IMG/VR virus record: IMGVR_UViG_3300033148_006741
Span: 1 to 40,104 of that record
DNA: 40,104 bases
Direction: 5' to 3' (one strand)
Origin: a virus
The position numbers were made by a program, and so were the translations under genes. Positions 8,773 through 35,389 of the stretch are shown here, one piece after another. The stretch's first letter is position 1; every line of letters begins with the position of its first letter. The notes under the pieces were generated by a model. That model did no database searches and was not told the DNA's origin. It saw only the letters and a program-made list of their open reading frames with translations.

Positions 8773-9252
8773 ATGAACTATTTTGTAGGATGCCAGACAC
8801 AGGATGAATTTAAGCAGAGGTATAAAGAGTTAGCCAAGAAAAACCATCCCGACTTGGGCGGTTGTAGTGAAGATATGAAAGCTATAAATGAGGAATATGA
8901 GAAAGGTTTCCGTGAGAATTACAAGAAGTCCGGTACAGAATACGAGGGTATGGATGTAGAGGATTTGTTGAAGGAAGACAGAGAGCTACGCGAGAAGCTT
9001 TATGCAATCTTGGGCATCGAGGGCATTGAAATAGAATTGTGCGGGACATGGCTATGGCTAACAGGGAACACGAGAGAGGTACGAGATGTTTTAAAGCGGA
9101 ATGATTTCAAGTGGGCAAGGAAAAAGAGTGCTTGGTATTTCCACACAGGAGCTTACAGCAAGCGAGGCAAGAAGCGTTTTACTCTGGATGAGATAAGGGT
9201 TATGCACGGAAGTGCAAACATCAAGACCAATACACGGAAAGTGTTAGCTTAA
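8773..9252 (+). CDS. J-domain (DnaJ-like) early protein
   Basis: 159 residues from the ATG at 8773, chosen because the repeated ribosome cassette GGAGAGAAGA lies just before it. Residues 11-43 form a short J-domain with the HPD signature at 25-27 (KELAKKNHPDLGG) and the following helix EDMKAINEEYE. The second half (about 75-150) holds ELCGTWLWLTGNTREVRDVL and WARKKSAWYF, an accessory domain regularly joined to this J-domain in phage and plasmid proteins. J-domains stimulate the ATPase of DnaK, so it probably redirects the host chaperone. A near-copy of the J-domain lies in the 1202-residue virion protein. Confidence 0.8.
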   Translation: MNYFVGCQTQDEFKQRYKELAKKNHPDLGGCSEDMKAINEEYEKGFRENYKKSGTEYEGMDVEDLLKEDRELREKLYAILGIEGIEIELCGTWLWLTGNTREVRDVLKRNDFKWARKKSAWYFHTGAYSKRGKKRFTLDEIRVMHGSANIKTNTRKVLA

Positions 9253-9273
9253 CAAACAAAACAAGGAGAGAGC

Positions 9274-9492
9274 ATGAAGATAGTATTAGATAACACGCTG
9301 AAAGCAGAATTGAAAGATCTTATTTTCAATACGCTAAATTTCTGTGGCAACACTTATCTTGCTACGATTGATTTTTGTCATGAGAACCGTTTAGAGATGA
9401 GTGAAGATGTCGAGAATTTTAGGTATCAAACAATAGAAGACTTTCATAATACAACAATTTTAAGGAGAGAGCATGACAACACCAGCACATGA
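9274..9492 (+). CDS. Small early protein, unknown
   Basis: 72 residues (MKIVLDNTLKAELKDLIFNT...), preceded by AAGGAGAGAGC. Acidic, mostly helical by eye, single soluble domain; no motif recognised. Its last 20 bases contain the ribosome site and start of the next short ORF at 9473, giving translational coupling. Confidence 0.45.
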   Translation: MKIVLDNTLKAELKDLIFNTLNFCGNTYLATIDFCHENRLEMSEDVENFRYQTIEDFHNTTILRREHDNTST

Positions 9493-9683
9493 GATATATC
9501 GTCAGTTAGGTAGTAAATGCTTATTTATGCTAGGGGCGCAAAACTTTAGCAGATCGAAAGATGTTAAGTGAGCGCATGTTCAAATTAGTATTAATTATTG
9601 AGGGGGGGGATATCATTTTGTTTTTGGATAATTTGGGTATACCTAGCAATAACGTTTAAATAGAAAAACATGGAGAGAAGATT
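9473..9683 (+). pseudogene. Truncated member of a small phage protein family (IYxQLGxxxFxxMTGAxNF type)
   Basis: An excellent ribosome site (AAGGAGAGAGC) precedes an ATG at 9473, but the frame stops at 9571 after 32 residues. Those residues (HEIYRQLGSKCLFMLGAQNF) match the N-terminus of a common small phage protein, normally about 80-100 residues long. Beyond the stop another frame (from about 9561 to 9658) stays open across a G-run at 9601-9608 and reads FKLVLIIEGGDIILF, similar in character to the missing part. The likely cause is a frameshift near 9560. The 9572-9683 stretch holds nothing else. The family match is from memory of the pattern. Confidence 0.5.
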
Positions 9684-9905
9684 ATGAGAAAGAAGAAATG
9701 TACATTTGCGCCCCCTGGAACGAATGGTCATGAATGTGGTAGAGTAGCCGTAACGGTAGGTCTATCAAAAAGCGTCCTTACAAAGAGTGGTATTTTTTAC
9801 AGTTATCGTTGTAAAGAGTGTGCATCAATTAGTGGAGGGGAGAATACAAAGATCTTTTACTGGGAAGATTATGACCCAGCAAAACACATTAATTTCTGGA
9901 AATAG
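9684..9905 (+). CDS. Small zinc-binding early protein
   Basis: 73 residues. Cysteines in the contexts KKKCTFAP, HECGRV and YRCKECAS form a CX..C/CxxC set that could bind one zinc. The C-terminus is aromatic (IFYWEDYDPAKHINFWK). It is the third gene preceded by AACATGGAGAGAAGATT. Nothing more specific can be said; other possibilities include an anti-sigma or RNA-polymerase-binding peptide, but this is unsupported. Confidence 0.5.
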   Translation: MRKKKCTFAPPGTNGHECGRVAVTVGLSKSVLTKSGIFYSYRCKECASISGGENTKIFYWEDYDPAKHINFWK

Positions 9906-9916
9906 GAGATAGTAGC

Positions 9917-10162
9917 ATGAAAAAGAAGAAATTGTTAATGTATTGCAAGATAGGAGATGTTTTTATGTTCTCTGATCATGATGCGCATTATATGGTGTGT
10001 CACGATGTTGATTCGCAGCAGAAGATCGCTGTTGTCCTCGACCACAAAGTGATAGGGAGAGGTAATGCGTTTCGAATTACAGATGAATATGACGATGATA
10101 ATGGTTGTGAGAAGGTGGTTGTATTCTCAGCAGTGTTAAAGATTGAGGAGGGGGAAACATGA
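9917..10162 (+). CDS. Small early protein, beta-rich, unknown
   Basis: 81 residues, start MKKKKLLMYCKIGDVFMFSD. Alternating hydrophobic residues (VFMFSD, KIAVVLDHKVIG, KVVVFSAVLKI) suggest a small beta barrel. The TGA overlaps the next ATG (10159-10162), so the two genes are coupled. No family recognised. Confidence 0.5.
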   Translation: MKKKKLLMYCKIGDVFMFSDHDAHYMVCHDVDSQQKIAVVLDHKVIGRGNAFRITDEYDDDNGCEKVVVFSAVLKIEEGET

Positions 10163-10377
10163 AGCAGACAAAAGAAAAAGCGGAAGAAATGGGAATAATC
10201 GCATTTAGATCTGGTTTAGGTCGAGCACCCTGTCAAAACAAAGAATTTTTAGAATGGATGCCTAATGGTAATATTGATGACAATGCACTCCATAAAACAA
10301 GAATGGATCTTATGCGTGCGTATGTAATTGGTTGGACTTCAGAGGATTTGAAAATATTAGCGGAGTTTTTGAAATAG
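10159..10377 (+). CDS. Small early protein with ribosome-modulation-factor-like core
   Basis: 72 residues. The stretch FRSGLGRAPCQNKEFLEW...MRAYVIGW resembles the short helical family that includes Rmf (ribosome modulation factor) and related phage proteins (A...G..A...G......PY.......W..G). The match is partial and from memory. The GAGGAGGGGGAAAC ribosome site lies at the end of the preceding gene. If correct, it may act on ribosomes or be a small nucleic-acid-binding factor; otherwise unknown. Confidence 0.4.
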   Translation: MKQTKEKAEEMGIIAFRSGLGRAPCQNKEFLEWMPNGNIDDNALHKTRMDLMRAYVIGWTSEDLKILAEFLK

Positions 10378-10396
10378 AAACATAAGGAGAGAGAGC

Positions 10397-10684
10397 ATGA
10401 AGATTGGCGATTTACCCGAGGAGAAGCAGCGCGAAATCGCTGCGGCAATGTTAGGGGTTGACACGAGGAAAGAAAAGGATGACAGCATGAAGACACGGAT
10501 CTTGAATTTAATTCGTGAAGAAATTAGCAAAAAGAATGAAAACTGCGAGGTTGTGAGAGAATCACTTGCGCGCATTCGTGGAAATATTTGTATCGAGGTA
10601 GCGGACGGTCATTTTCTTGAAAGATTTTATCATGAGATATGTGAGTTGGGTAGTATCGAAGAAAAAATAATGAACTTAGAATAA
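10397..10684 (+). CDS. Small early protein, helical, unknown
   Basis: 95 residues (MKIGDLPEEKQREIAAAML...), highly charged and helix-forming, with a second internal ATG (at 10487, MKTRILNLIREEIS) after GACAGC that lacks a good ribosome site. Preceded by AAGGAGAGAGAGC. No domain recognised. Confidence 0.45.
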   Translation: MKIGDLPEEKQREIAAAMLGVDTRKEKDDSMKTRILNLIREEISKKNENCEVVRESLARIRGNICIEVADGHFLERFYHEICELGSIEEKIMNLE

Positions 10685-10701
10685 ACAAACAAGGAGAGAG
10701 C

Positions 10702-10797
10702 ATGCTAATCTTATTCATGAGTGTATTGAGTTGTGCAGTGGGCTTTGTTCTGGGTTTGGTGCATAGCGAGACGTTGCGTTTACGTAGGGACAAGTAG
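10702..10797 (+). CDS. 31-residue single-span membrane peptide
   Basis: Short ORF with this operon's standard ribosome site (AAGGAGAGAGC). The sequence is MLILFMSVLSCAVGFVLGLV followed by a basic tail (HSETLRLRRDK): one membrane helix, N-terminus out and positive tail in the cytoplasm. Last gene before the terminator. It could be a holin-like or superinfection-related peptide; the sequence alone does not decide. Confidence 0.5.
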   Translation: MLILFMSVLSCAVGFVLGLVHSETLRLRRDK

Positions 10798-10803
10798 ACA
10801 TCT

Positions 10804-10834
10804 GGCCCCATCGGTTAGCACCTTGGGGCCTTTT
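10804..10834 (+). terminator. Terminator of the plus-strand early operon
   Basis: A perfect 7-bp stem (GGCCCCA/TGGGGCC) extended by an inner GGT-TAGC-ACC hairpin is followed by TTTTG. It ends the early operon just before the convergent minus-strand genes. Confidence 0.8.
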
Positions 10835-10874
10835 GTCAAAACCTACTAAGACCTACTAAATTAGTAGTTACGGT
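10834..10874 (-). repeat. 41-bp direct repeat, copy 1 (terminator-like)
   Basis: Identical over 41 bases to 11138-11178. On the minus strand it reads CTACTAA, then two TTAGTAG arms, then GTTTTG, a plausible terminator with alternative pairing. Both copies lie at the 3' end of a minus-strand gene and include or abut its TAA. Confidence 0.85.
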
Positions 10875-11086
10875 TAAGGATTTCGCCTTGAGAAGAAACG
10901 GACATCGGCCTCATACCAAAACTTCTTTTTGCAATGCTCGCACTCTGTCTCATTGTCTCCTAACTTGTAGTTTCCTTCTTCAACTGTTGAGCTACAATCC
11001 TTGTAGCAATGGGGGCAAACGGGAATATAGGTGTCCCATTCTTCGCCATCGTGTTGCAAGTGGAACATCTTGTCTTTTTCATTCAT
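10874..11086 (-). CDS. Zinc-ribbon small protein between 41-bp repeats
   Basis: 70 residues from the ATG at 11084-11086 (MNEKDKMFHLQHDGEEW); five upstream codons of the open frame are the ribosome site AAAGGTGGAAG. CPHCYKDC and CEHCKKKF form a classic two-knuckle zinc ribbon (residues about 24-55). The gene, with its upstream fragment, is framed by two exact 41-bp repeats, as if inserted or duplicated as a unit. Function unknown. Confidence 0.6.
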   Translation of the reverse strand: MNEKDKMFHLQHDGEEWDTYIPVCPHCYKDCSSTVEEGNYKLGDNETECEHCKKKFWYEADVRFFSRRNP

Positions 11087-11135
11087 CTTCCACCTTTTCA
11101 TATGTTTCGTGTATAGCGAATATATTTTTAATCAT
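11079..11135 (-). pseudogene. Remnant C-terminus of a lost gene (HETYEKVEDE)
   Basis: An 18-codon ORF, MIKNIFAI followed by HETYEKVEDE and a stop. The last ten residues, and 29 bases of DNA (11083-11111), are identical to 11779-11807 in the 114-residue gene. It carries the ribosome site of the zinc-ribbon gene. Best read as the 3' end of a duplicated gene left behind when the rest was lost, still serving as the next gene's leader. Confidence 0.6.
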
Positions 11136-11137
11136 AA

Positions 11138-11178
11138 TGTCAAAACCTACTAAGACCTACTAAATTAGTAGTTACGGT
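11138..11178 (-). repeat. 41-bp direct repeat, copy 2 (terminator-like)
   Basis: Exact copy of 10834-10874, overlapping the stop of the Lar-like gene. If it terminates leftward transcripts, the zinc-ribbon gene beyond it is reached only by readthrough. Confidence 0.85.
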
Positions 11179-11345
11179 GTTCGAGTGTTCCAGTGTTTCG
11201 CCACTTCTTCATGGGTGCCGGAGTCAGTAAACACATCACATTGCATACACCATACGTAAAAGGATTCTTCCCAATCGTTTTCATCTACTTTCACAATGAC
11301 ATTATCACGCCCACAAAAGGGGCAACTCAAAAGTTCTTCACCCAT
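11172..11345 (-). CDS. Lar-like restriction alleviation protein
   Basis: 57 residues from the ATG at 11343-11345. LLSCPFCGRDNV near the N-terminus, VWCMQCDV in the middle and EEVAKHWNTRTP at the end follow the Lar-family pattern (LLPCPFCG ... C..C ... A...WN.R). Lar family members modulate host type I restriction, though many phage relatives are only inferred. It starts 8 bases inside the preceding gene, with ribosome site AGGGGGAAGG, and its TAA lies inside the 41-bp repeat. Confidence 0.65.
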   Translation of the reverse strand: MGEELLSCPFCGRDNVIVKVDENDWEESFYVWCMQCDVFTDSGTHEEVAKHWNTRTP

Positions 11346-11526
11346 CCTTCCCCCTCTTATCTAGCATATCGAGGATACCGATGATATCCTCTATGACCTT
11401 TTTTACTTCGAGCAACTGAACATCAAGTCGCATAATCAAATCCTTATTCTTAGCAGATTGAAATAAGCAAAAGAATATCCCTATCATTACGAGCAAAATA
11501 AAGCCCATCCATAGTTGATCACTCAT
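11338..11526 (-). CDS. Small membrane protein with coiled-coil tail
   Basis: 62 residues: one membrane helix (MGFILLVMIGIFFCLF, residues 7-22) and a charged helix with heptad leucines/isoleucines (LIMRLDVQLLEVKKVIEDII). This shape occurs in small holin- or spanin-type lysis proteins, but also in many unrelated phage peptides. No partner is recognisable next to it. Start overlaps the previous stop (ATGAGTGA). Confidence 0.5.
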   Translation of the reverse strand: MSDQLWMGFILLVMIGIFFCLFQSAKNKDLIMRLDVQLLEVKKVIEDIIGILDMLDKRGKDG

Positions 11527-11782
11527 TCTTCCACCTCTCCTTCGGTATGGATTCTATGAGCTTCCTTGCTTTTTCGCTTCCTATCATAGCAAGTGTTTCG
11601 CTTTGCCTGAGACGGCAACCATGATTAATGATATCCCTGATATCAGCATCTTCATTAAGCCCATCACCAACGCCAATATAACCATGATAAATATCGGTCA
11701 CTCTATCGAAAGCAAACACAACACCTACACAGCCTTTTGGTCCTGTAAACCATTTATGTTCTAATTCTACGAGACCACTCAT
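11519..11782 (-). CDS. Hypothetical protein
   Basis: 87 residues from the ATG at 11780-11782 (MSGLVELEHKWFTGPKG); earlier codons of the frame are the ribosome site. Beta-rich start (CVGVVFAFDRVTDIYHGYIGVG) followed by helices. It overlaps the previous gene by 29 bases because that gene's usual TGA has become TGG. No family recognised. Confidence 0.5.
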   Translation of the reverse strand: MSGLVELEHKWFTGPKGCVGVVFAFDRVTDIYHGYIGVGDGLNEDADIRDIINHGCRLRQSETLAMIGSEKARKLIESIPKERWKNE

Positions 11783-12098
11783 CTTCCACCTTTTCATATG
11801 TTTCGTGAAATATACTTTCTTTAATTGGATACATCTCCCCTTTGATTCCTTTAATGATATAGTCTCCTTCTCCTCCGGTCATCACCCCTTCGAGTGTAGG
11901 AATATTAATTCCGATTTGATTATTGGGCAACATTACTCCTGCTGGCTTGTCATCTTCCAGCTTACCAACTCCTGCGAATTCACACATTTCGTCCCAAGTA
12001 TCCCACCGCAATTGCAATGCTTCGATTACGATTGGTTTTTTCCTATACTTCTTCGTTCTTCTTATAATTTTTGTTTCACTATCTTCTATTTCACTCAT
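11754..12098 (-). CDS. Conserved phage protein of the YRKKP...GDYIIKG type
   Basis: 114 residues. YRKKPIVIEALQL (residues 18-30), IPTLEGVMTGGEGDYIIKGIKGEMYPIKESIF and HETYEKVEDE follow a widespread phage and prophage protein pattern (sometimes annotated PGDYG domain); its biochemical role is not known. The 114 residues include a WSRRIRT tail: all neighbouring genes with this junction stop at ...GAGTGA, here it is GAGTGG, giving an eight-residue extension. The next gene starts inside it. Confidence 0.7.
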   Translation of the reverse strand: MSEIEDSETKIIRRTKKYRKKPIVIEALQLRWDTWDEMCEFAGVGKLEDDKPAGVMLPNNQIGINIPTLEGVMTGGEGDYIIKGIKGEMYPIKESIFHETYEKVEDEWSRRIRT

Positions 12099-12288
12099 CT
12101 TCCACCTTTGTTTTCAGTTTTGCTAGAGATTCTTCTCTTTTTTTCCATTGACTCTCGTCGCCTTCGGAATTTTCGACGTACCCCGAGGGCATGTGCGTTA
12201 ATCTTATCCCAAACATACGTCCTAAATGGGGGTATCCCCGTGGGACATATGTATCAATCCTCACATCTTCGATTTTGAATTTACTCAT
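12091..12288 (-). CDS. Small protein resembling a release-factor fragment
   Basis: 65 residues. VRIDTYVPRGYPHLGRMFGIRLTHMPSG and DESQWKKREESLAKLKTKV align by eye with the class I release factor core (VRITHIPTG ... RSQ.KN...A...L), a short version found in several phages. The catalytic GGQ is absent, so it could not release peptides; it might bind ribosomes or stalled tRNA. It ends KVEDE, encoded by the ribosome site of the next gene. The family call is tentative. Confidence 0.45.
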   Translation of the reverse strand: MSKFKIEDVRIDTYVPRGYPHLGRMFGIRLTHMPSGYVENSEGDESQWKKREESLAKLKTKVEDE

Positions 12289-12460
12289 GTTCCTCCTGGC
12301 ATTTTTGTGCTTCTTCGCATGTCATTCCCCCGTGAACCATTCTTGCGAATGTTGCTAGTTTTATGGCAAACTCATAAGAAATTGGTCTAAAATCTAGTCC
12401 ACCTGTTTCGAGATTATTGATTAATACCCCAAGGGCTTTTTTACATTCTTCTTCACTCAT
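12281..12460 (-). CDS. Hypothetical protein
   Basis: 59 residues from the ATG at 12458-12460 (MSEEECKKALGVLINN), which overlaps the previous stop as ATGAGTGA; the longer open frame would begin far inside the previous gene. Helical, with three cysteines and a GGLDFRPISYEFA core. Not recognised. Confidence 0.5.
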   Translation of the reverse strand: MSEEECKKALGVLINNLETGGLDFRPISYEFAIKLATFARMVHGGMTCEEAQKCQEEHE

Positions 12461-12698
12461 CGTCATCCTCGTCTTTGTTTCTATTGAGATTTCCATGCAT
12501 TAAGAAACCGATCAAATATGGGATTAGATCCGCGACCATCTCTTTTGTTAGGTGCATCGGGCTTTCGTCTGTACCTAACACAATGGCTTCCTCTGAAGTA
12601 ACGCTGCTTTCAGCTATACGGCATCCGACAGCATATCGATCTTTGAATGCAACCCAGGTGAAACCGCCCCCTGTTTTGCCTTTTTTCATTTCACTCAT
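12453..12698 (-). CDS. Hypothetical protein
   Basis: 81 residues from the ATG at 12696-12698 (MSEMKKGKTGGGFTWVAF); ribosome site GAGGTGGAAG lies in the previous gene's end. Probable mixed alpha/beta fold; ends in an acidic DEDDDE run which encodes the next ribosome site. Not recognised. Confidence 0.5.
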   Translation of the reverse strand: MSEMKKGKTGGGFTWVAFKDRYAVGCRIAESSVTSEEAIVLGTDESPMHLTKEMVADLIPYLIGFLMHGNLNRNKDEDDDE

Positions 12699-12963
12699 CT
12701 TCCACCTCTTTTGTGATGCCTTCAGGTCTGTCACCTATGGTTACTTTGTCGTCGAAATAGGCGTAACGAAGGGGGTATGTTGTTTTCCCACCGCCTTGAT
12801 CTTGCTCGCGTTCAACGGGCTTACCACTCTGTTGATTCACGATTTGTCTGTAGAGCAGTTCCCTTCCATCATGATTCAATGAAAATTCTTTGGTATCTCT
12901 AACTTTCAAAGAATCATAGAGAACTTGCATGAGATATGTTAACTGTTTATCGCTTATTTTCAT
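12691..12963 (-). CDS. Hypothetical protein
   Basis: 90 residues (MKISDKQLTYLMQVLYDSL...). N-terminal helices with DKQLTYLMQVL...S, then NHDGRELLYRQIVNQQ, then a Gly-rich loop and an acidic EVEDE tail overlapping the next start. The first third resembles the small helical modules seen in phage early proteins; no named family. Ribosome site GGGAGGAAG in the preceding gene. Confidence 0.5.
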   Translation of the reverse strand: MKISDKQLTYLMQVLYDSLKVRDTKEFSLNHDGRELLYRQIVNQQSGKPVEREQDQGGGKTTYPLRYAYFDDKVTIGDRPEGITKEVEDE

Positions 12964-13127
12964 TCTTCCTCCCAGTCAACGGCAATCTTTGCAAGTCCAT
13001 ACCTGGCGAGGATGCGTTGAATTTTTTGATAGTTTGTTACTGAGCTACGAGTACGTTCATGTTGTGGGGGTGCTTTCGGCTTTGGCTTGAAGCAAGCGCA
13101 TGCGAGTACGTCATTGATCAGTTTCAT
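12960..13127 (-). CDS. Small basic protein
   Basis: 55 residues (MKLINDVLACACFKPKPKAPP...). A proline- and lysine-rich N-terminus, then a helix (YQKIQRILARYGLAKIAV) and an acidic WEEE end that carries the ribosome site of the next gene. ATG at 13125-13127 overlaps the preceding gene. No family recognised. Confidence 0.5.
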   Translation of the reverse strand: MKLINDVLACACFKPKPKAPPQHERTRSSVTNYQKIQRILARYGLAKIAVDWEEE

Positions 13128-13842: not shown

Positions 13843-13844
13843 TT

Positions 13845-14828: not shown

Positions 14829-14835
14829 GAGATTT

Positions 14836-15482: not shown

Positions 15483-15484
15483 TC

Positions 15485-19275: not shown

Positions 19276-20161
19276 CGTTGAACAGAGATCCGATGAATGG
19301 TATGCGTTTCGCAAAGAAGGTATTGGCGCATCAGAAGCCTCTGCAGTTTTGGGAACATCAAGATATAAAACCCCAAAAGACATATGGGAAATAAAGACGG
19401 AAAGAGCATTCCCTGATTTTACCAATGTGGATATGCAAAGAGGAATTGATTTAGAACCATCTGCTAGGGCAGCATTCGAAATGATAATAGGAAAGTCGTT
19501 TCCATCACTATGCGGAATACATGATGAACTTCCGTACATAAGAGCTTCCTTTGATGGGGTAAGCAAGGACTTCAAGGAGATAGCCGAATTTAAGTGTCCA
19601 AGGACTATGAAGCTTTTTAAAATCCTGAAAGAAGAGAACTTGCCTCTTTTCATGGAGGAATATCCCGAGTACTATGCTCAAATCATGCACCAGTTTGCGG
19701 TATGCGATACCGCAGATACTGCATACATTGTTTCATATATCAACGGAGAGATCGCATATATGCGATTGTCAAGAGATGCGCACTTCATTGAGACTCTTCT
19801 TATTCCTGAGATAACCTCTTTCTGGAAGGAGTTTGTATTGAAAGATGTTGAACCACCCCTCTCCGGTAAAGACTGCCTGTACATCGATGATCCGGAAGCC
19901 ATTAAAGAGGCTGAAGAGTTGGTTGCCTTAAGTGAGACAATAAAGAATCTTCTGGAAAAAGAGAAATCCCTCAAGAAGCGCATTGCTGATAGGAGTGATG
20001 ATGGAAACTTTCAGGTGGGACCAATCCTCAGAGTAACACGAGTCAATAAAAAAGGAAACGTTGACACAAAGAAGCTTTATGAGGCTTATGCAATTACCGA
20101 AAATGATCTCAAAAAGTTCAGGAAATCAGGAATAGGATTTTGGCAATATAGAGCTTTGTGA
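19262..20161 (+). CDS. YqaJ-family (lambda Exo-like) exonuclease
   Basis: 299 residues. RSDEWYAFRKEGIGASEASAVLG at the start, MQRGIDLEPSARAAFE (E65), then ASFDGV (D98) and EFKCP (E109, K111) give the YqaJ PD-(D/E)XK catalytic set; EEYPEYYAQIMHQFAV is the conserved helix with QxxxQ-like residues. The C-terminus has a coiled coil and a beta-hairpin. It degrades one strand from double-strand ends, feeding the Erf annealase made from the same message. Ribosome site AAGGAGAAG. Confidence 0.93.
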   Translation: MKIVDVEQRSDEWYAFRKEGIGASEASAVLGTSRYKTPKDIWEIKTERAFPDFTNVDMQRGIDLEPSARAAFEMIIGKSFPSLCGIHDELPYIRASFDGVSKDFKEIAEFKCPRTMKLFKILKEENLPLFMEEYPEYYAQIMHQFAVCDTADTAYIVSYINGEIAYMRLSRDAHFIETLLIPEITSFWKEFVLKDVEPPLSGKDCLYIDDPEAIKEAEELVALSETIKNLLEKEKSLKKRIADRSDDGNFQVGPILRVTRVNKKGNVDTKKLYEAYAITENDLKKFRKSGIGFWQYRAL

Positions 20162-20190
20162 TACAAAAAATTGTTAGTAGAGGAGGTTTT

Positions 20191-20481
20191 ATGCCACTCG
20201 TTACATGTGAATTCTGCAGAAAACAATTTGAAAAATATGCTGCACATATAAAAAGAACGAAAAAACATTTTTGTTCTAATTTTTGCCAAGGAAGATATGA
20301 GTCTAACATGAATGTATTGTCGTTTATAGGAAAAAAGTATGGTGAATTGAAAATCTTGGAATATTCTGGAAGCGATTATGACAATCGTTCCTTAGTAAGA
20401 TGTATTTGCTCTTGTGGAAGAGAGACAATAAAACCTTTGAGAAACATTGTAAAAGGTTCGATAAAGAGATGTGGAACATGA
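20191..20481 (+). pseudogene. N-terminal part of a broken homing endonuclease
   Basis: 96 residues from the ATG at 20191 (AGGAGG upstream). It begins with a zinc finger (CEFCRKQFEKY...FCSNFCQGRYES) nearly the same as in the HNH protein at 28695-29375, followed by IGKKYGELKILEYSG and CICSCGRETIKPLRNIVKGSIKRCGT, the N-terminal domain of many phage HNH proteins. The nuclease part is in another frame downstream. Probably one gene that lost an internal segment and its frame. Confidence 0.6.
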
Positions 20482-20768
20482 TAATATGCCATCATTGTGA
20501 CAATCCCCGCTGTGTTTTGATTTCCCATCTTTTTCTCGGAACGCATGCTGATAATGCTCATGACAAAGTTAAAAAGGGAAGACAGTCACACTCCAAACTA
20601 AAAGGTGAAGAATGTGGGAATGCAAAACTCACTCAAAAACAAATAGTAGAGATAAAGAGGCTTTATTCTACAGGTAAATATACGCAAATTTATTTAGCTA
20701 AATTATTTGACGTATGCGATAGCAATATATGCCAAATAATAAACAACAAAACATGGAAGCATACTTGA
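20478..20768 (+). pseudogene. HNH nuclease part of the broken homing endonuclease
   Basis: 96 residues. ICHHCDNPRCVLISHLFLGTHADNAHD is the core of an HNH_3-type domain; GRQSHSKLKGEECGNAKLTQKQIVEIKRLYSTG... and CDSNICQIINNKTWKH form the usual C-terminal DNA-recognition helices. The normal N-terminal stretch before the first H is missing. An ATG at 20478 overlaps the preceding TGA (ATGA), so a truncated nuclease could still be made by re-initiation. Confidence 0.65.
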
Positions 20769-21374: not shown

Positions 21375-22139
21375 CTATGTTGTAATAAAAGTAATAGGTT
21401 TATCGAAACTGAATCCAGTAATTGTTTTTCCACTGAAAGTTAGATCAGATGCTATTTCCCCATATGTTCCAGCCCAAGCAAGACATGAAGATGGCACACT
21501 GAGTAGACCATCAACAATTAGTCCTCTATTCCAAAAATACCTTGCCGACGGAAATTCTAATGCGGATGTATTTTTTACAGCGATCACTAGCCACACTGGG
21601 CCTGCGCTATATGATACGGATGACGAATATGTTTTTAATCCAGTTGTAGATGCATCAAGTTCGCCAGACTCGAAAAGTCTCGTGCCAAAATCACCCGAAC
21701 TGTCTGTGAAAATTGCAAACCGGAATTTTTGACTTGCTGAAGCTGTTGAGACATATAATGCTGTTGTAGCAGCAGTTACATCCGCTCGAACATATATTGG
21801 AAAAACATAAAAAAGATTAGTTACTGCTAAACTTTCATCTGCATCAATGTTCTCTCCCATTAAAGATAATGTATGGTATTCGGTTGCAGCAAGAAAATCA
21901 TCGTTAAAACCTGTTCCTAATTCATTTCCACCCCCTGAGGGTGATTGAAAGGTTGGCAATACTCCTGCTCCATTGGATGTGAGGGCTTGACCAGCCGAGC
22001 CAACCCCTGCAATAGGCTGAATATCGCTGGTTGAAGCAGTTCCTCCACAGAGAACGGAGTATGCCGTATGTGAAGCAGCTCCCGTGCCTCCTTTAGCAAC
22101 CTGAATAGGCATGTCCGTGTTTACACTGTTCTGTGACAT
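21375..22139 (-). CDS. Tail fibre / receptor-binding paralogue 3 of 3
   Basis: 254 residues. The first about 66 residues (MSQNSVNTDMPIQVAKGGTG...LTSNGAGVLPTFQ) are almost identical to those of the next two genes and to a repeat type found in many fibres. The C-terminal part alternates conserved segments (YVRADVTAATTALYV, FRFAIFTDSSGDFGTRLFES, TYSSSVSYSAGPVWLVIAVKN, WAGTYGEIASDLTFSGK) with variable ones. Probably a fibre tip or adhesin. TAGGAGT ribosome site shared by all three copies. Confidence 0.7.
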   Translation of the reverse strand: MSQNSVNTDMPIQVAKGGTGAASHTAYSVLCGGTASTSDIQPIAGVGSAGQALTSNGAGVLPTFQSPSGGGNELGTGFNDDFLAATEYHTLSLMGENIDADESLAVTNLFYVFPIYVRADVTAATTALYVSTASASQKFRFAIFTDSSGDFGTRLFESGELDASTTGLKTYSSSVSYSAGPVWLVIAVKNTSALEFPSARYFWNRGLIVDGLLSVPSSCLAWAGTYGEIASDLTFSGKTITGFSFDKPITFITT

Positions 22140-22147
22140 AATTACTC

Positions 22148-22921
22148 CTAACTTATTGTAATATATAAAAAAGCTGGATCTTCTAAACTCGCAGTCAAGC
22201 TTTTTCCACTGAAAGTTAAATCAGACGCTATTTCCCCATATGTTCCTGTCCAGTGAAGAAAACCAACATTATCTGCACTTATAGGATTTGCAATCCAACC
22301 CGCATTTACTGTTTGGTCACATTCACGCAAGCCGAAATCATTAGCATTTTTTACAGCGATCACTAGCCACGCTGGGCCTGCGCTATATGATACGGATGAC
22401 GAATATATTTTTGCTCCAGAAAAAGTCGCATCAATCTCACCAGACTCGAACAATCTCGTTCCAAAATCCCCTGCATCATCAGTGAATATCGCAAACCGGA
22501 ATTCTTGGTCACTACCAGGATCACCAAGATACAATGCTGTTGTAGCAGCGGTTACGTCCGCTCGAATAATTACAGGATGAGCATAAAAGGCATCTGCAAC
22601 ACCTCCCAAATCTGATATTGCTGTAGTGTCGTTTAAATTAACAAAGACACAATGATAATGAGAGGATTGCAAATAATCATTGTTGTAGTCAACCGTAAGA
22701 TCAGCACCACCTCCCCCTGATTGATTCTGAAAGGTTGGCAATACTCCTGCTCCATTGGATGTGAGGGCTTGACCAGCCGAGCCAACCCCTGCAATAGGCT
22801 GAATATCGCTGGTTGAAGTAGTTCCTCCACAGAGAACGGAGTATGCCGTATGTGAGGCAGCTCCCGTGCCTCCTTTAGCAACCTGAATAGGCATGTCCGT
22901 GTTTACACTGTTCTGTGACAT
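22148..22921 (-). CDS. Tail fibre / receptor-binding paralogue 2 of 3
   Basis: 257 residues with the same N-terminal module and interleaved C-terminal frame as its neighbours. Here the variable parts read SSHYHCVFVNLNDTTAISDLGGVADAF and DFGLRECDQTVNAGWIANPI. It is separated from its neighbours by only 8 bases, an unmistakable tandem duplication. Different copies may bind different receptors, or form hetero-trimers; neither is shown by sequence. Confidence 0.7.
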   Translation of the reverse strand: MSQNSVNTDMPIQVAKGGTGAASHTAYSVLCGGTTSTSDIQPIAGVGSAGQALTSNGAGVLPTFQNQSGGGGADLTVDYNNDYLQSSHYHCVFVNLNDTTAISDLGGVADAFYAHPVIIRADVTAATTALYLGDPGSDQEFRFAIFTDDAGDFGTRLFESGEIDATFSGAKIYSSSVSYSAGPAWLVIAVKNANDFGLRECDQTVNAGWIANPISADNVGFLHWTGTYGEIASDLTFSGKSLTASLEDPAFLYITIS

Positions 22922-22929
22922 AATTACTC

Positions 22930-23700
22930 CTAACTTATTGTAATAAACATTGATGTTAGACTTTTTGTGCTACTTGTTATTGTTTTTCCACTGAAAGTTA
23001 AATCAGACGCTATTTCCCCATATGTTCCAGCCCAAGCATGTCCGTTATAAATTACTGAACCGCTTGCATTGCAATGTTTTGCTGTATTAATAGTGTAAGT
23101 ACAGGCTTCAACATCCAAATCGGTTGTGTTTTTAGCAACGATCACTAGCCACGCTGGGCCTGCGCTATATGATACGGATGACGAATATGTTTTTAATCCG
23201 TTTGTAGATGCATCAAGTTCGCCAGACTCGAAAAGTCTCGTGCCAAAATCACCCGAACTGTCTGTGAAAATTGCAAACCGGAATTTTTGACTTGCTGAAG
23301 AATCTGTAACATATAATGCTGTTGTAGCAGCAGTTACATCCGCTCGAATAACAAAAGATTGAGCAAAAAATTCATCAGCGACATCTCGACCTGAAGGGAT
23401 GTCGGTTATACGATCATTTAGTGATAAAAGATGGTAATGTGATGATGGGAGTTGATCATTATTAAATCCTACACTATAGCTTGGACTGCTCCCCCCTGAT
23501 TGATTCTGAAAGGTTGGCAGTGTGGCAGCCCCATTAGAGATTAAAGCTTGACCAGCCGAGCCAACCCCTGCAATAGGCTGAATATCGCTGGTTGAAGTAG
23601 TTCCTCCACAGAGAACGGAGTATGCCGTATGTGAAGCAGCTCCCGTGCCTCCTTTAGCAACCTGAATAGGCATGTCCGTGTTTACACTGTTCTGTGACAT
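22930..23700 (-). CDS. Tail fibre / receptor-binding paralogue 1 of 3
   Basis: 256 residues. N-terminal module as in the other copies but with small changes (ALISNGAATLPTFQ), conserved core, and variable parts SSHYHLLSLNDRITDIPSGRDVADEF and LDVEACTYTINTAKHCNASGS. In places its DNA is identical to paralogue 3 over tens of bases and in others to paralogue 2, a mosaic suggesting gene conversion among copies. Confidence 0.7.
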   Translation of the reverse strand: MSQNSVNTDMPIQVAKGGTGAASHTAYSVLCGGTTSTSDIQPIAGVGSAGQALISNGAATLPTFQNQSGGSSPSYSVGFNNDQLPSSHYHLLSLNDRITDIPSGRDVADEFFAQSFVIRADVTAATTALYVTDSSASQKFRFAIFTDSSGDFGTRLFESGELDASTNGLKTYSSSVSYSAGPAWLVIVAKNTTDLDVEACTYTINTAKHCNASGSVIYNGHAWAGTYGEIASDLTFSGKTITSSTKSLTSMFITIS

Positions 23701-28631: not shown

Positions 28632-28646
28632 AATCCTTCAAAAACC

Positions 28647-28680: not shown

Positions 28681-28694
28681 GCCTAAGACGTTTT

Positions 28695-29375
28695 TCAAAT
28701 GCTAAGACGTGCAACCGAGTCTAAAGCTTCATAGCAATTTGATCCCAATTTTATTTTTCTATGAACTTCCTTATGGCATATTGAACATAACGGAACTAAG
28801 TTATTCAACGAATTATTGTCGCGATCACAATCTATATGATGTGCTTCTATTCTCTTAGCTTCCTTTGAACCATCGCAAGCTAAACACTTTTCCCCATGTT
28901 GTAGAAATGACATTCTTCTATATGTATGATGGCTTCCGCCTTTCCAATTAGAGTTTCTTTCCATTGCTCCTGAATCAGACAATAGTAAATTTCTTTTGGA
29001 TGAACATAAATCGCAATAACCACCATGATCTCTACACTTCACAACCCACAATTCCTTACCACAATCACCACATATTACTTTCTTCGATTTTCTTTTTATA
29101 CCACCATAAATCAGAAAATTATCATTGTCGCGTATAAGACCATCCCTTTTGTCAATCGTATTCCTATTTCTGCAAAGTATAGAACAGAATCGTCCTTCCT
29201 TCCTTTTTAACAGAAAACCTTTGCCACAGAACTCGCAGTTCCTATATCTAACTTTCTTCTGTGCTTTAGATTTACACTCTTGAGAACAATAATGATGTTG
29301 ATATTTCGCCTGACTAGCAAAACGATGAAATTCCTTGCTGCAAAACTCGCAGTTTAATACTGCCTTTTTATTCAT
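28695..29375 (-). CDS. HNH homing endonuclease with multiple zinc fingers
   Basis: 226 residues from the ATG at 29373-29375 (GGGGGG upstream); the longer frame adds 12 unsupported residues. Three N-terminal cysteine modules (CEFCSKEF...CSQECKSK, CEFCGKGF...CSILCRNR, CGDCGKEL...CDLCSSK) precede the classical HNH: CLACDGS, AHHID, NSLNNLVPLCSICHKEVH (residues about 165-210). A free-standing selfish endonuclease sitting between fibre genes. Its first zinc finger is nearly the same as in the broken gene at 20191. Confidence 0.88.
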   Translation of the reverse strand: MNKKAVLNCEFCSKEFHRFASQAKYQHHYCSQECKSKAQKKVRYRNCEFCGKGFLLKRKEGRFCSILCRNRNTIDKRDGLIRDNDNFLIYGGIKRKSKKVICGDCGKELWVVKCRDHGGYCDLCSSKRNLLLSDSGAMERNSNWKGGSHHTYRRMSFLQHGEKCLACDGSKEAKRIEAHHIDCDRDNNSLNNLVPLCSICHKEVHRKIKLGSNCYEALDSVARLSI

Positions 29376-29429
29376 GATGCCCCCCTTGGACTGTTTAACC
29401 AAAGAGGGCATCGTATAGTACCGAATTGT

Positions 29430-29445
29430 TTAACGCAAGCGTTAA
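29430..29445. repeat. 16-bp perfect palindrome at the end of the 756-residue fibre gene
   Basis: TTAACGC-AA-GCGTTAA overlaps the stop codon of the fibre gene and lies next to the HNH gene. It could be a weak terminator or the recognition site of the endonuclease's ancestor; no U-run. Confidence 0.5.
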
Positions 29446-31712
29446 CTTAAGTCAAGAATGCGGTAGTTGATGATGACCTTAAGGACACCATCTCCTCCTC
29501 CAGCCCCAGTAAATTCGGCCCCGTCGTTATAAAGCTCGATCTTTTTATTGGCAAGCATTGTAACGTCAGTAGCCAAAGTTCTTGCAGTGGACGCAGCATC
29601 TGCTACAGCATCTACTAGTCCGTCAGCTTCTACGGTCAGTGATACTACGGTACTTGCGTCGAATCTGATCTGGAAATTTCCATCAGCAGCAGCGTCGTCA
29701 TATGCCACACTTCCAAAATCAAGAGCAATAACAGCACCCAAGAAGTCAATGTACTTATCAGCACCAGGAGCTGCAATAAGTTCCTTTGGAGAACCAGCCA
29801 AAGCCTTTATTTCACCAGAAGAAACCGCCACTGTTGCTGTACGTATCATTGATGTAGCTGTGTCGAGGTTTAGTGTGTTAACACCAGTTGTCGACGTAAT
29901 AGTTCCACCAGCATGAGCAATACTTGCAAATTCACCTGTCGCGCCCGTTGCGCCAATAATGACTTGCCCTGCGGTTCCAGCGGCTGTGGTTGCTGCAAGA
30001 ATACCAGCGACCGGTAGTGTTATGGTCGTAGCACCTGTGGTGGTAAAGCCAACATTATGCGCACCAGTTTGAATGAAATCACCCAGTGTAGTCAATGCCC
30101 CAGCTAGAGCAACATCACCACCGAGAGTAATTGAACGATTTGTATCACCAACATCCCATGATATTGTCTTATCTCCGCTAAGCACTTCAGAAGTGGCTTG
30201 CAGAAGATCAAAAGCAGCACCAGTAGAACGGATGGAGAATGCTGTCAATTCAATCGCAGTACCTCCGGTAATCCCAGGCGCAGTAAGCGTCTTATTTGAA
30301 AGCGCCTCACTGCCAGCAAGTGTTGCTAACGTTCCCGTTGTTGGAAGCGTAACAGTAGTCGCGCCTGTGGTTGTTACACCAATTGTGTGAGCGCCTGTTT
30401 GAGACCATGCTGCCAACGTGGTAAGAGTTCCGCCAAGAGCGATATTACCACCCAAAGTAATACTTCTATTGGTGTCCCCAACATCCCAAGAAATAATCTT
30501 ATTGCCTGTAAGAACTTCCGCAGTATCTTGTTCAAGATCGAACGCTGCACCTGAAGAACGGATGGAGAAACCTGTCAGAGAGTCGGCTGTTCCACTGTTA
30601 ATGTCAGGTGAAGTAAGCGTTTTATTCGCAAGAGTTTCTGCTTTTGTCTTGAACACAAACGTATCACTTACAGATGCAAAGTCTGGAATTGTTAATGTTG
30701 GCGCACTAACTGTCTGGGTTGTAAATGCAAGAATCGCATCATCTGTCCCAGCATCATTTAATGTTGCACCATTAGCTATCGATGTAGCAGAAGAAACGCT
30801 CGGAGTTCCCCAAAAGTTAACAGCAGCAGCACCACCAGAAACGAGAGCCTGTCCAGCAGAACCGACACCGAGAACTACCCAATTCGAACCATCAAACTGA
30901 GCGATAGTACCCTCAGCTTCAGAAGCAAGGGTAAAGTCTGTAACAGTAGACACACCAGCATTGCTAAGAGCAACATCACCAGACCAAAGAACGGAGTTGA
31001 AAGTTGTACCATTACCGATACCAATATACTTATCTGTCTTGAAAGAAACCCGTTCCCAATTAGCAGCTCCACGAATTGTAATATCTCCTTGAGCATCCGA
31101 ACCAAAAGTAAGATCCGTTACAGTCGAAACACCACCTGTGGTAATAGCAACGTCACCAGTAAGATCTTTATTGTCCCATGAATTAGAATTGTCCCAAATC
31201 AGGAGTTGAGCTCCGGATGGGGTGGTGATATTCGTGTCCGTGGCCGCCGCGATTGTTGTGATCCCTGTTGTAAAAGATCCCCACGCTGCAGAAGCATAAA
31301 GAAGATAACCCGCTGTCTCTTCGTCAAAGACTACCATACCTTCACTCGGAGCTGTTCCTTCCCAAGCAGCACCTTGATACTCATAAATATAATCAGCCGT
31401 CCATGAACCACTTGTTGCAGTAGAAAGATATCTATTACCTTCTGTTGCAACAGCACCAGCAAAATTCGTTTGCTTAAGTACACTTTCTTGGTAATCATAT
31501 GAGCCTGCCAACTTTCCCCATGTGGCAACTCCTGCATTTTTCCCTATCATTATAAAAGCTTTTTTATCTAAAGCATTTATCCAAAAAGCTCCTACATTTG
31601 AATTATTGTCCGCTGTAGTCGGATCACGCTGATAAACACGTGTCTCAGCTGTATTTTGTCCCCTTGTCCTTCTACCATTAAAAGGATCATTGCTGTGTAA
31701 TTGGTTTCCCAT
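29442..31712 (-). CDS. Tail fibre with 110-residue tandem repeats
   Basis: 756 residues. The N-terminus (1-70, ...GAFWINALDKKAFIMIGKNAGVATWGKL) is a fibre-attachment type module. Residues 361-470 and 471-580 are two tandem repeats of exactly 110 residues, each starting LxNKTLTxPxI and including KxISWDVGDTNRSITLGG and TTTGATTxTLP. The C-terminal part (VGDGVLKVIINYRILDLS at the end) is beta-rich. Such GxTT/NKTLT repeats form triple-stranded fibre shafts. A second long fibre beside the 1158-residue one. GGAGT ribosome site. Confidence 0.75.
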   Translation of the reverse strand: MGNQLHSNDPFNGRRTRGQNTAETRVYQRDPTTADNNSNVGAFWINALDKKAFIMIGKNAGVATWGKLAGSYDYQESVLKQTNFAGAVATEGNRYLSTATSGSWTADYIYEYQGAAWEGTAPSEGMVVFDEETAGYLLYASAAWGSFTTGITTIAAATDTNITTPSGAQLLIWDNSNSWDNKDLTGDVAITTGGVSTVTDLTFGSDAQGDITIRGAANWERVSFKTDKYIGIGNGTTFNSVLWSGDVALSNAGVSTVTDFTLASEAEGTIAQFDGSNWVVLGVGSAGQALVSGGAAAVNFWGTPSVSSATSIANGATLNDAGTDDAILAFTTQTVSAPTLTIPDFASVSDTFVFKTKAETLANKTLTSPDINSGTADSLTGFSIRSSGAAFDLEQDTAEVLTGNKIISWDVGDTNRSITLGGNIALGGTLTTLAAWSQTGAHTIGVTTTGATTVTLPTTGTLATLAGSEALSNKTLTAPGITGGTAIELTAFSIRSTGAAFDLLQATSEVLSGDKTISWDVGDTNRSITLGGDVALAGALTTLGDFIQTGAHNVGFTTTGATTITLPVAGILAATTAAGTAGQVIIGATGATGEFASIAHAGGTITSTTGVNTLNLDTATSMIRTATVAVSSGEIKALAGSPKELIAAPGADKYIDFLGAVIALDFGSVAYDDAAADGNFQIRFDASTVVSLTVEADGLVDAVADAASTARTLATDVTMLANKKIELYNDGAEFTGAGGGDGVLKVIINYRILDLS

Positions 31713-31772
31713 AGATTACTCCTTGCTGTATTGTTGTGGCTAATTCACCCCACGCCACTTTGGGTTTTGACA

Positions 31773-31792
31773 GCGAAGATTTATTTCTTCGC
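31773..31792. other. Hairpin at the end of the ejection protein gene
   Basis: GCGAAGA-6-TCTTCGC, perfect, spans the stop codon of the 1202-residue gene. It lacks a U-run, so it may protect the 3' end or mark a processing site rather than terminate. Confidence 0.4.
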
Positions 31793-34700
31793 CACCTTCT
31801 TGTTGCCAACTATGAACTTTTTCATAGTCGTTATTGTTCTTTTGATGGATGACATCTTGTAACCATTGTCTTTGAGAACTCTCACAATCTTATTGAGTTT
31901 TCCCATATCTCCTTTTCTCAGTGCGTCGTAAATATATGGTTCAGCTTTCCTTAATGACATACCTTTTCCAACGGGTATTCCTCCCAATCCTGATGCAGCC
32001 CATACCGCAAGACCTTCTATGAAATTACCATCTTTCCCAATAGTGCGAACTCCAAATGGAATAAACTCTCCAACAAGTTCTTTAGTTCTGGATGCACCTC
32101 TTCCAATCGTATGTTGCATTGTTCCTGACCAAGGACGCATTGCTCCATTAACATATTCACCCTGAACTGGAAAAGCACTTCCCTGATATGGAGAGGCACC
32201 AAACATCTGTTTTAATCCAGTTTGAACAACAGGACTTCCTTTTGAGAAAAGAGCATCTAAGGGATCTGTAACATAACGAGGAATCTCAAGAGCTTGCTTT
32301 CCAAAGTGGGCATGTCGTTTCCTTCCCCTCTCGTCTCGACCCGGATTGAATTCCACCTTTCCAACTTTCAGGTTAACATCAGGTAATGGAAATGAAAACC
32401 ATTTTGAAGGATCGTCTTCATCCCAAACTCTCATTGCTTTCTTAGCATTCCAACGTATCTTATTAGATTCATCTTTCTTAGATTCAAAACCTGACATAAC
32501 CAATCTCATAAGAGCTGTAATCAAAAGCATTCCCATTACATAACGAATCCAATATGCTCGTGCCATGTCTCCCTTAACACCTTTTCCAAAGAAACCGGCT
32601 GCCTGTTTAATAGCAGAAACCGACCAGTCAGGATACCCAACGGCTCGTTGTACCCATTTACGAATATTAGGATCATTGAAAACACGGGAGAGCTCTTTGA
32701 TCTGACCACCAAATTGGTTATTAACAAGTTCACCACTTTCTCGTTTAATCTGTATCATCAATTCAGGGGTTATCTTATGTCCTTTCTCAAGGTGACGGAC
32801 AATAGCTTCTTCAACATACGTCTGCCAAGTGAAGATTTTTAGACGAGGCTGGTATTCATCAAATAAAAACTTGTCTGCCTTGATTATATTGTCGTAAACA
32901 GGTTGAAGATTCTTACCAAACATCTTTTTAGGTAACTTATCAAGTGCTCTTGTGAAAAAACCTTCTACTTGACGAATTTGTTCTTGATCTGGTATGCGCC
33001 CAATCTCAATATACTTTGAGGCTTCCATCATAAATTCTTTGTCAGCACGTAATCGAGTTCCTTCATCCCACCAGTTCTTTGGAAAGAGATTCTTCATTCC
33101 GGGAAGTGCTTTGAAAAGATCAAATCCCAATCCACCTATTCCCGCTTCTGCTAATGCGTAATAATGAAAAGGCGACAATTTGACACGACTTGTTTTTAAA
33201 ATATTATTGAGAGTATCATAATATTTCCAAAATGGATATTCTGGCTTGAAAGCATCTTTTCTAAACATACCCTTCATTGCAGGAGCAAGGTCAGGATTCA
33301 TCAATGCTGGTTGTGCATGGACTGCCCGAATGGTTTCACCCTCTTTTGTTTTCCCTGCGTTATAACTTCTTAGAAAAACATCATGGAAAGGAATCCATCC
33401 TCCTCGTTTGGCTTGTGCGTAAAGTTTCCCATCACTAAGAGTAATGATTAATTTGCGACCTGTCTCAGCCTCTAGCTTTCTGATAGAATCAAGCAACTCA
33501 TTGTTAGCCTCAAGGCGCAACATGATCTCATCATACGCCTGCATTAAATGACTAGGATCTTTATACCTTGGTTTCAACCCAGCCTTTACGAAAGCTTCAT
33601 TGTAATCGAGGAATGTCTTCTGTTTCGATAATGGGTTCTTTGTCTTAAATTGTTTCGAGACAATATTTAATATTGGGCCATAACCCCCTTTCGGTTCTTC
33701 GTAGATCCCTGGAAGATATACCTCCTGAACTCCTTCTCCTGGGTTAATATTCCTTGTAACAATATTATCATTCCATCTCTTAAGCCACGCATCAGTGTGT
33801 CGTGCCATCTCTTCTGCAACATCTTTCCCCTCTTCAGGTAGACGTTTAGAAAGAGCTTCAAAACTATCACCTTTAACATTCGGATTTTCAGTATTTTGAC
33901 GATAATAAATGATTTCTTCTCGTTCTTTCGGAGTGAAATTTCTGCCAAGTTCCTTTTCAGCTTCAAGCATAACATCTCGCCACTTGAATTGAGACTCGAC
34001 ACGACCAGCTCTTGTCTTCTCTACATGATTTCGCAGAATGTCGAAATATTTTTCCTCTCGTACCTTTTTATCTTTATAAGCAAGAGCTTTTCGAGCCAAT
34101 TTTCTAATTGGTTCAGGGAAGTCCTCAATAGCATCTCGCAGTGCTTGATCTGGTGATTCAGACTCTTTGGGTTTAACTTCTGGTTCTGCTGGTTCTTTTC
34201 GTGGTTCTTCTTTCTTCTTAGGTTCTTCTTTTCGTGGTTCTTCTTTTCGTGGTTCTTTCTCAGTCGGTGCAGGAGACTTCTTACCCACTGACCTCTCTTT
34301 CTCAAACGGTTTTCTAGTCTTTACCTTTGGTTGTGCCTGAGTGGTCTGTTCCAAAATGGAAACAACCTCTGCCTTTGGACTTGGCTTTGTCTCAGGCTTT
34401 GTCTCAGCTTCATCAACCTTCTTCTCTTGTTTCACAAGTTCTTTTTTCTGCTTAACTAATTTCTTTTTGTCCTCTGCAATTTCTTTTGCTTGGTCTTCAT
34501 TTATTGCATTAAACATTCGGATGAATCCAGTATCGGGATTAGTAGAATTGATTTCTTCGTCTACCGTCTTTTTTCTTTGTCGAAGTACTTTCTCTTCTTC
34601 TGTTATTCTCTTCTCAAATTTGTCAATCTCCGATTTCTGCTTATTGAGAGCATTCCTTTCTTCTCCAAATGCAATAATTTCAGCTTCTTCTATAGTCTTT

Positions 34701-35389
34701 GCTTTGCGGATTTTATCAATCCTCTTGTCTGTCTCCGATACAAATTCTTCCTTTGGCTTAGGTCGAGTCTCAGGCTTTGTCTCGGGCTTTGTCTCAGGCT
34801 TTTGCTCAGGCTTTTGCTCAGGCTTTTGCTCAGGCTTTGGTTTCGTTTTTTCAGCTTCCTCAAACCCTTCTTGCCCTTCTCCAAAAAAGTAGTTAAGTGT
34901 GTCTCGTATGTAATCAAATCGTCCAGGCTTTTGATGTCCTCTACTATACTCTTCATTGATAGCCTTCATTATCTCTGTATCGCCACCAATATCAGGATGA
35001 TTCTTTTTAACCAAATCCTTGAATCTTTGCTTAAACTCAGCCTTGGTTTTAGTCCCTTTGAAATGCTTTACAACTTCAGGACTAGGAGGTTTGCTTCCTC
35101 CTGTTTGAGCCTTCTGTGCTTTAAGTTCTGCCTGTATCTTGTTGTAGACTCCTGATGTAAGATGGAATCCAAATGTTAACGCAATATTATCACCAATCTC
35201 TCTTACCGAAGGTATTCTCATATCCAAAATTGCTTGAGATCCTGTAATTGCTGTAAGAGTCGCTATTGGTTTTTCTAATAACTTTCCAACCTTTGAATTT
35301 AAGAGTGGCCTAAATCCTGGTAAAGTTCTCATCACAGGTAATAACTTCGATGCCTGGGACGTAGCAGCACCCACGATGGCTGATTTCAC
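31781..35389 (-). CDS. Large ejection (internal virion) protein with J-domain, main part
   Basis: 1202 residues from a GTG at 35387-35389 that has no good ribosome site and lies directly after an in-frame TGA. Residues about 110-150 are a J-domain (KDLVKKNHPDIGG, HPD at 131-133) very close to that of the early protein at 8773. Then KPEQ/KPET repeats (about 188-215), long charged coiled coils (to about 420) and a C-terminal half (about 480-1200) rich in aromatic and basic residues with one hydrophobic segment (YVMGMLLITALMRLVM). Position after the portal and Q-rich protein fits an ejected virion protein. See the adjoining 180-residue gene. Confidence 0.6.
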   Translation of the reverse strand: MKSAIVGAATSQASKLLPVMRTLPGFRPLLNSKVGKLLEKPIATLTAITGSQAILDMRIPSVREIGDNIALTFGFHLTSGVYNKIQAELKAQKAQTGGSKPPSPEVVKHFKGTKTKAEFKQRFKDLVKKNHPDIGGDTEIMKAINEEYSRGHQKPGRFDYIRDTLNYFFGEGQEGFEEAEKTKPKPEQKPEQKPEQKPETKPETKPETRPKPKEEFVSETDKRIDKIRKAKTIEEAEIIAFGEERNALNKQKSEIDKFEKRITEEEKVLRQRKKTVDEEINSTNPDTGFIRMFNAINEDQAKEIAEDKKKLVKQKKELVKQEKKVDEAETKPETKPSPKAEVVSILEQTTQAQPKVKTRKPFEKERSVGKKSPAPTEKEPRKEEPRKEEPKKKEEPRKEPAEPEVKPKESESPDQALRDAIEDFPEPIRKLARKALAYKDKKVREEKYFDILRNHVEKTRAGRVESQFKWRDVMLEAEKELGRNFTPKEREEIIYYRQNTENPNVKGDSFEALSKRLPEEGKDVAEEMARHTDAWLKRWNDNIVTRNINPGEGVQEVYLPGIYEEPKGGYGPILNIVSKQFKTKNPLSKQKTFLDYNEAFVKAGLKPRYKDPSHLMQAYDEIMLRLEANNELLDSIRKLEAETGRKLIITLSDGKLYAQAKRGGWIPFHDVFLRSYNAGKTKEGETIRAVHAQPALMNPDLAPAMKGMFRKDAFKPEYPFWKYYDTLNNILKTSRVKLSPFHYYALAEAGIGGLGFDLFKALPGMKNLFPKNWWDEGTRLRADKEFMMEASKYIEIGRIPDQEQIRQVEGFFTRALDKLPKKMFGKNLQPVYDNIIKADKFLFDEYQPRLKIFTWQTYVEEAIVRHLEKGHKITPELMIQIKRESGELVNNQFGGQIKELSRVFNDPNIRKWVQRAVGYPDWSVSAIKQAAGFFGKGVKGDMARAYWIRYVMGMLLITALMRLVMSGFESKKDESNKIRWNAKKAMRVWDEDDPSKWFSFPLPDVNLKVGKVEFNPGRDERGRKRHAHFGKQALEIPRYVTDPLDALFSKGSPVVQTGLKQMFGASPYQGSAFPVQGEYVNGAMRPWSGTMQHTIGRGASRTKELVGEFIPFGVRTIGKDGNFIEGLAVWAASGLGGIPVGKGMSLRKAEPYIYDALRKGDMGKLNKIVRVLKDNGYKMSSIKRTITTMKKFIVGNKKVAKK

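Follow-up and report, generated by a model that had tools for sequence, protein, structure and literature searches.

The contig IMGVR_UViG_3300033148_006741 (IMG/VR; positions 1 to 40,104, the 40.1-kb stretch referred to here as the window) comes from a metagenomic, podovirus-like phage with a P22-like portal, a major head protein, a terminase and a DnaC-like helicase loader. Its portal matches in cultured phages are only 20–23% identical, so it has no close cultured relatives. Two of its open reading frames (ORFs) contain a segment that, judged by sequence and predicted fold, is a J-domain, the module that recruits Hsp70 chaperones and triggers them. The first ORF, on the plus strand at 8773–9252, encodes an early-type protein of 159 amino acids (P0002), in which an N-terminal J-domain (residues 1–45, 8773–8907, HPD at 25–27) is followed by a C-terminal domain. 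The second, on the minus strand at 31781–35389, encodes a protein of 1202 residues (P0001), which alignment with its homologues identifies as the 3′ part of a large gene in a slot used for ejection or polyvalent proteins. Here the J-domain is an insertion (residues 107–151, 34937–35071, minus strand, HPD at 131–133) that most homologues lack.

The two J segments

BLASTP aligns residues 107–151 of P0001 with residues 1–45 of P0002 at 28 identical positions out of 45 (62%, E 5e-17), and within the 31-residue core that runs from EFKQR to NEEY 24 residues are the same. When the whole record is searched in six frames with P0002, exactly two places are returned, P0002 itself and 34928–35068 on the minus strand (E 1e-15), which puts the likeness far above chance. 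An initial annotation of this DNA, which had proposed that an early protein and the 1202-residue protein share a J-domain, is thus confirmed for both ORFs. Its description of the copies as near-identical goes too far, since 62% over 45 residues makes them related; their J-domain nature, on the other hand, agrees with the HPD motif, the helices and the profile matches described below.

The Pfam DnaJ model recognizes P0002 at E 3.6e-4 (21 bits) and the virion-type segment alone at E 0.016 (15.8 bits), both under the gathering cut-off of 27.8 bits. All seven members of the J-segment group match the model at E < 0.1, and a profile built from the seven segments finds 37 PDB sequences at E ≤ 0.01 (range 1e-6 to 1e-2), nearly all of them named DnaJ/Hsp40 or T antigen; the top match is the HPDVGGD-bearing complex I subunit NDUEG6 of Euglena. 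The HPD tripeptide is present in both copies and is flanked by helices in both AlphaFold2 (AF2) models. These lie at residues 10–24 and 32–50 of P0002, and at 21–27, 33–47 and 55–70 of a 97-residue fragment around the virion-type segment, whose HPD is at 48–50 and whose predicted local distance difference test (pLDDT) values are 71–79 over residues 31–70. A Foldseek search with the virion-type segment returns mostly J-domains, among them Tim14 (probability 0.84) and Sis1 (probability 0.72). Structure prediction, the first check that the initial annotation had proposed, therefore yields J-type helices around the HPD in both copies, with modest confidence for the virion-type one. With the HPD loop, the predicted helix hairpin and the matches of the group profile taken together, both segments are classed as J-domains.

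Only the J part links P0001 to the family of P0002. The phrog_15863 family matches P0002 over residues 1–153, J-domain and C-terminal domain together (E 1.4e-40), whereas in P0001 it matches the J part only. An orthologue of P0002 exists in the syntenic contig L056 (portal 60%, terminase 53% identical), where it occupies the same slot, upstream of the terminase genes and divergent from them. The 20 bases that precede P0002 (8753–8772) are nearly identical to those before another early-type gene, the two genes being consecutive (8443–8462): AAACATGGAGAGAAGA. This suggests a shared translation signal.

The large gene and its split reading frame

The portal gene (36990–39071, minus strand; Pfam P22_portal, E 1.4e-57) is followed by one gene for 328 amino acids and then by the large gene, which is split in the window. 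By alignment, its N-terminal portion is a 180-aa ORF (35451–35993, minus strand), which contains helical repeats and a Gly/Ala-rich hydrophobic segment, and it is 52% identical to residues 6–182 of the single-ORF orthologue in contig L013. In six relatives (L013, L019, L047, L048, L049 and L051) one ORF spans both parts. The interruption has two components, a frameshifting 31-bp tandem duplication (35432–35493, minus strand; copies 35432–35462 and 35463–35493, with one mismatch) and a TGA in frame (35390–35392, minus strand) directly before the GTG start of the 1202-residue ORF, where all homologues have a sense codon. This GTG lacks a Shine-Dalgarno sequence, which nearly every other gene in the window has. 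The one-base mismatch between the repeat copies would fit an assembler's junction of two strain variants, and the split perhaps arose during assembly; all searches and folds used the contig sequence as it stands, unrepaired. Recoding of the TGA was considered and rejected, since TGA is the ordinary stop of several window genes, some of which overlap the next gene. Thus, the 1202-residue “virion ejection protein” of the initial annotation has correct coordinates but covers only the 3′ portion of a gene that is split, and a virion role is deduced from position and family.

Within the large protein, the J-domain comes immediately after the Gly/Ala-rich N-terminal module and is followed by a low-complexity linker rich in K, E and P (residues 152–430, about 280 residues; 34100–34936, minus strand), which is largely absent from homologues. 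The C-terminal region (residues 433–1202; 31784–34093, minus strand) is conserved in seven metagenomic phage proteins. Neither this region nor any other part of the window protein outside the J segment gives a Pfam, PHROG or PDB match.

In three relatives (L003, L010 and L011, with portals 74%, 63% and 55% identical to that of the window) the gene slot is occupied by LPD38 proteins of 1420–1688 aa. The LPD38 domain has been described solely from phage-type polyvalent proteins, which are believed to play a part in conflict with the host (PMC5512222), and phage polyvalent proteins are thought to be injected along with the DNA (PMC7824862). Relatives were reached via portal alignments; single-protein scans of viral contigs with P0001 or P0002 gave no match. 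The large window protein also has the traits of an ejection protein, namely its big size, its hydrophobic segments and a gene near the portal. Its probable place is the head, from which it would be ejected together with the DNA, to judge from a slot two genes after the portal and from the LPD38 proteins found there in relatives. As the protein lacks an LPD38 domain and matches nothing in Pfam, PHROG or PDB apart from its J segment, its place in the virion is an argument from this setting. No Pfam match to LPD38 or another polyvalent domain is seen in P0001 or in its six-member family, which is not counted as part of that class. Homology between this family and the LPD38 proteins of the slot is not claimed either, profile comparison giving only a match of 5% identity in the N-terminal region.

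The virion-type J-domain as a derived insertion

The C-terminal region is represented by seven distinct homologues, of which two, those of the window and L013, contain the J segment; it is missing from L047, L048, L049, L051 and L019. In a tree of 703 columns that leaves out the J segment, and from which an intein-like insert of L019 was also excluded, the window and L013 proteins are sisters (support 100/99), so that a single gain in their common ancestor suffices. Taken on these sequence comparisons, the virion-type J-domain is a derived, lineage-specific insertion. The alternative that it is an ancient part of the large protein is rejected by its absence from five of the seven homologues; the initial annotation had named such a survey as a check on its proposal, which on the whole is partly supported and on this point holds. 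The J-domain of L013 retains HPD and matches the same PHROGs as that of the window.

The intein-like insert just mentioned belongs to a homologue without a J-domain (L019:9554–13603, also in L053). It is about 315 residues long and interrupts one of the best-conserved motifs in the C-terminal region, with GYPDW on one side and TTSAVRQAA on the other.

Where the inserted module came from is indicated by a 26-row tree of J-domains, in which the virion-type J falls within the clade of phage early-type J-domains (98/96) and has the early J of the window itself as its closest neighbour (90/83). Transfer of an early-type module into the virion-type protein is the best account of this position, and it would have taken place in the ancestor of the window and L013 phages. 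P0002 itself looks like a mosaic. Its C-terminal domain is nearest to that of L056 (92/97) and its J-domain nearest to the virion-type J, a pattern consistent either with exchange or with co-adaptation of both J-domains to one DnaK. Pairwise identities run the same way, the two J-domains of the window being closer to each other (28/48) than the early one is to its L056 orthologue (22/48) or the virion-type one to its L013 orthologue (18/42). These figures could be taken for recent copying within the genome by gene conversion, an explanation that is very improbable and largely refuted by the codons: the same codon is found at just 6 of 27 shared residues, whereas codon usage predicts 11.8 (P 0.016 for a count this low). 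In approximately unbiased (AU) tests, a clade of the P0001 and L013 J-domains stays unrejected (p 0.37), and one of the P0002 and L056 J-domains comes near rejection (p 0.07). The comparison covers 48 columns, which permit neither finer resolution nor dating of the exchange. The initial annotation had attributed the likeness to module exchange within the genome; the early-type origin and the mosaic pattern agree with this, but the codons and the AU result (p 0.37) mean that the exchange need be neither within this genome nor recent. As a separate observation, the codon identity between 34937–35071 and 8773–8907 is below chance, as if identity at the DNA level were avoided, although this is weak evidence.

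Possible roles of the virion-type J-domain

The simplest reading of the insertion is that the J-domain brings DnaK to the large protein itself. From its sequence, we consider the chances about evenly balanced that this protein recruits host DnaK through its J-domain. The J-domain would be held in the linker between the hydrophobic N-terminal module and the conserved C-terminal region of a protein that is packaged in the head and leaves it together with the DNA. It would then recruit host DnaK to the incoming protein and trigger ATP hydrolysis, and the clamped DnaK could serve as a ratchet or as a refolding aid on the cytoplasmic side of the entry channel. Once transcription begins, the early-type J protein would supply the same recruiting activity. 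Arrival in the new host, by ratcheting or refolding, is the step that we favour over assembly, over control of the host or its defences, and over no function at all, though as a tentative choice that has somewhat less than an even chance. The full scheme, in which a particle-delivered J-domain recruits DnaK at entry to pull in or refold protein and DNA by analogy with the Tim14/mtHsp70 motor, with the early twin as a backup, is speculative and on balance unlikely.

A number of findings weigh against recruitment of DnaK at entry. The full-length gene is split in the window contig by the frameshifting duplication and the TGA. In the J-domain of L013 core residues are changed, with Leu replaced by Asp in helix II and, in helix III, Ile by Thr and Asn by Arg, as if the constraint had weakened. 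The structural support is limited, since the AF2 model of the virion-type fragment has a mean pLDDT of 60 and the Foldseek E-values are weak (best 0.7), which makes them supportive rather than decisive. Any exchange between the J-domains is not recent, because the shared residues are mostly in different codons. Searches by tblastn of a phage collection with P0004, parts of P0001, L049 and L051 found no cultured member of the virion-type family, and two scans of genome contigs gave no match. Finally, a review of ejection proteins mentions neither DnaK nor Hsp70 (PMC8954989).

Among the other explanations, the one that survives best places the action of the J-domain in the producing cell, where DnaK would keep a large hydrophobic protein soluble until it is packaged, with no role at entry. 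For the J-domain proteins of jumbo phages, a role in bringing host Hsp70 to folding and assembly has been predicted (PMC7824862), and the size of the window protein, its hydrophobic segments and the long K/E/P-rich linker beside J would suit a client of this kind. Close homologues of similar size and hydrophobicity nevertheless manage without a J-domain, and the early-type J protein could already act in trans, which leaves this explanation improbable, at perhaps one chance in a few.

Slightly less likely still is that the virion-type J-domain is a delivered regulator of host DnaK, resembling Rki or countering a defence, which would act immediately at entry and be continued later by the early copy. 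A particle would deliver few copies into a cell that holds thousands of DnaK molecules, and apart from the J-domain no effector domain is recognized in the window protein by Pfam, PHROG or the family profile. In its favour, the early-expressed Rki binds DnaK and stabilises sigma32 (PMC3486835), the bNACHT25 defence guards the DnaJ/DnaK pair (PMC12169576), and the LPD38 proteins that fill this slot in relatives belong to a class believed to take part in conflict with the host (PMC5512222).

Equally doubtful is the idea that the segment has no DnaK activity and is a mere relic or helical spacer, in a gene that is decaying or was mis-assembled in the contig. The lesions upstream, the core substitutions in L013 and the absence of the segment from five of the seven homologues all point in this direction. 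Against them stand the HPD and core retained by the window J and its 62% identity to the early J despite saturated shared codons, which indicates constraint at the protein level, as well as a frame that stays open for 1202 codons downstream of the lesions. Recruitment of host DnaK to an ejected protein remains the most likely reading.

Other features of the window

Two overlapping ORFs in different frames at 20158–20768 look like fragments of a broken HNH-type endonuclease gene, and two HNH-type endonuclease genes are found at 1488–2030 and 28695–29411, within the structural region. At 21375–23700 lie three tandem genes for proteins of 254–257 aa, which are near-identical in their N-terminal halves (MSQNSVNTDMPIQVAKGGTGAASHTAYSVL) but have diverged in the C-terminal ones; judging from this pattern they are probably fibre-type paralogues.

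Relation to known systems

Phage J-domain proteins are known from jumbo phages (PMC7824862) and from large aquatic phages (PMC12619734), and the first functional one, Rki of phage RB43, works through host DnaK (PMC3486835). For a J-domain within an ejection or polyvalent protein, no report was found in the open-access literature. P0002 resembles over its whole length the phrog_15863 proteins with J and C-terminal domains in MW202738, Enterococcus phage Efs 1-1-1 and Fusobacterium phages, and that of MW202738 also occupies its slot beside the terminase genes. With the virion-type copy these proteins have only the J part in common.

The large protein shares with the LPD38 polyvalent proteins (PMC5512222) its slot, a large modular build and an N-terminal hydrophobic module, but no LPD38 domain is detected in it, and the main text describing that class does not mention DnaJ or a J-domain. 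With the ejection proteins of podoviruses (T7 gp14–16, P22 gp7/16/20; PMC8954989) it shares a gene near the portal, large size, hydrophobic segments and module swapping, but no sequence match. Tim14/Pam18, the membrane-tethered J protein of the mitochondrial import motor, is among the best fold matches, and the ratchet idea is modelled on it as an analogy only.

A close parallel to P0002 is Rki (gene 057w, PMC3486835), likewise a small early-type phage protein with a J-domain and HPD and with DnaK as its expected partner. Whereas Rki is free and early, the window phage has a second J-domain within a large protein encoded in the structural region. Known phage J-domain proteins are small and free. 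A J-domain within a protein of the entry machinery would, if real, tie host Hsp70 to the delivery of genomes or effectors, and what powers this step in short-tailed phages is poorly understood. In that case phages would also be reusing one J module at two stages of infection, and the protein would offer a testable example of a chaperone recruiter that is delivered ahead of all phage gene expression. The two copies hint that, beyond the free early proteins exemplified by Rki, some phages bring their own DnaK recruiter at infection.

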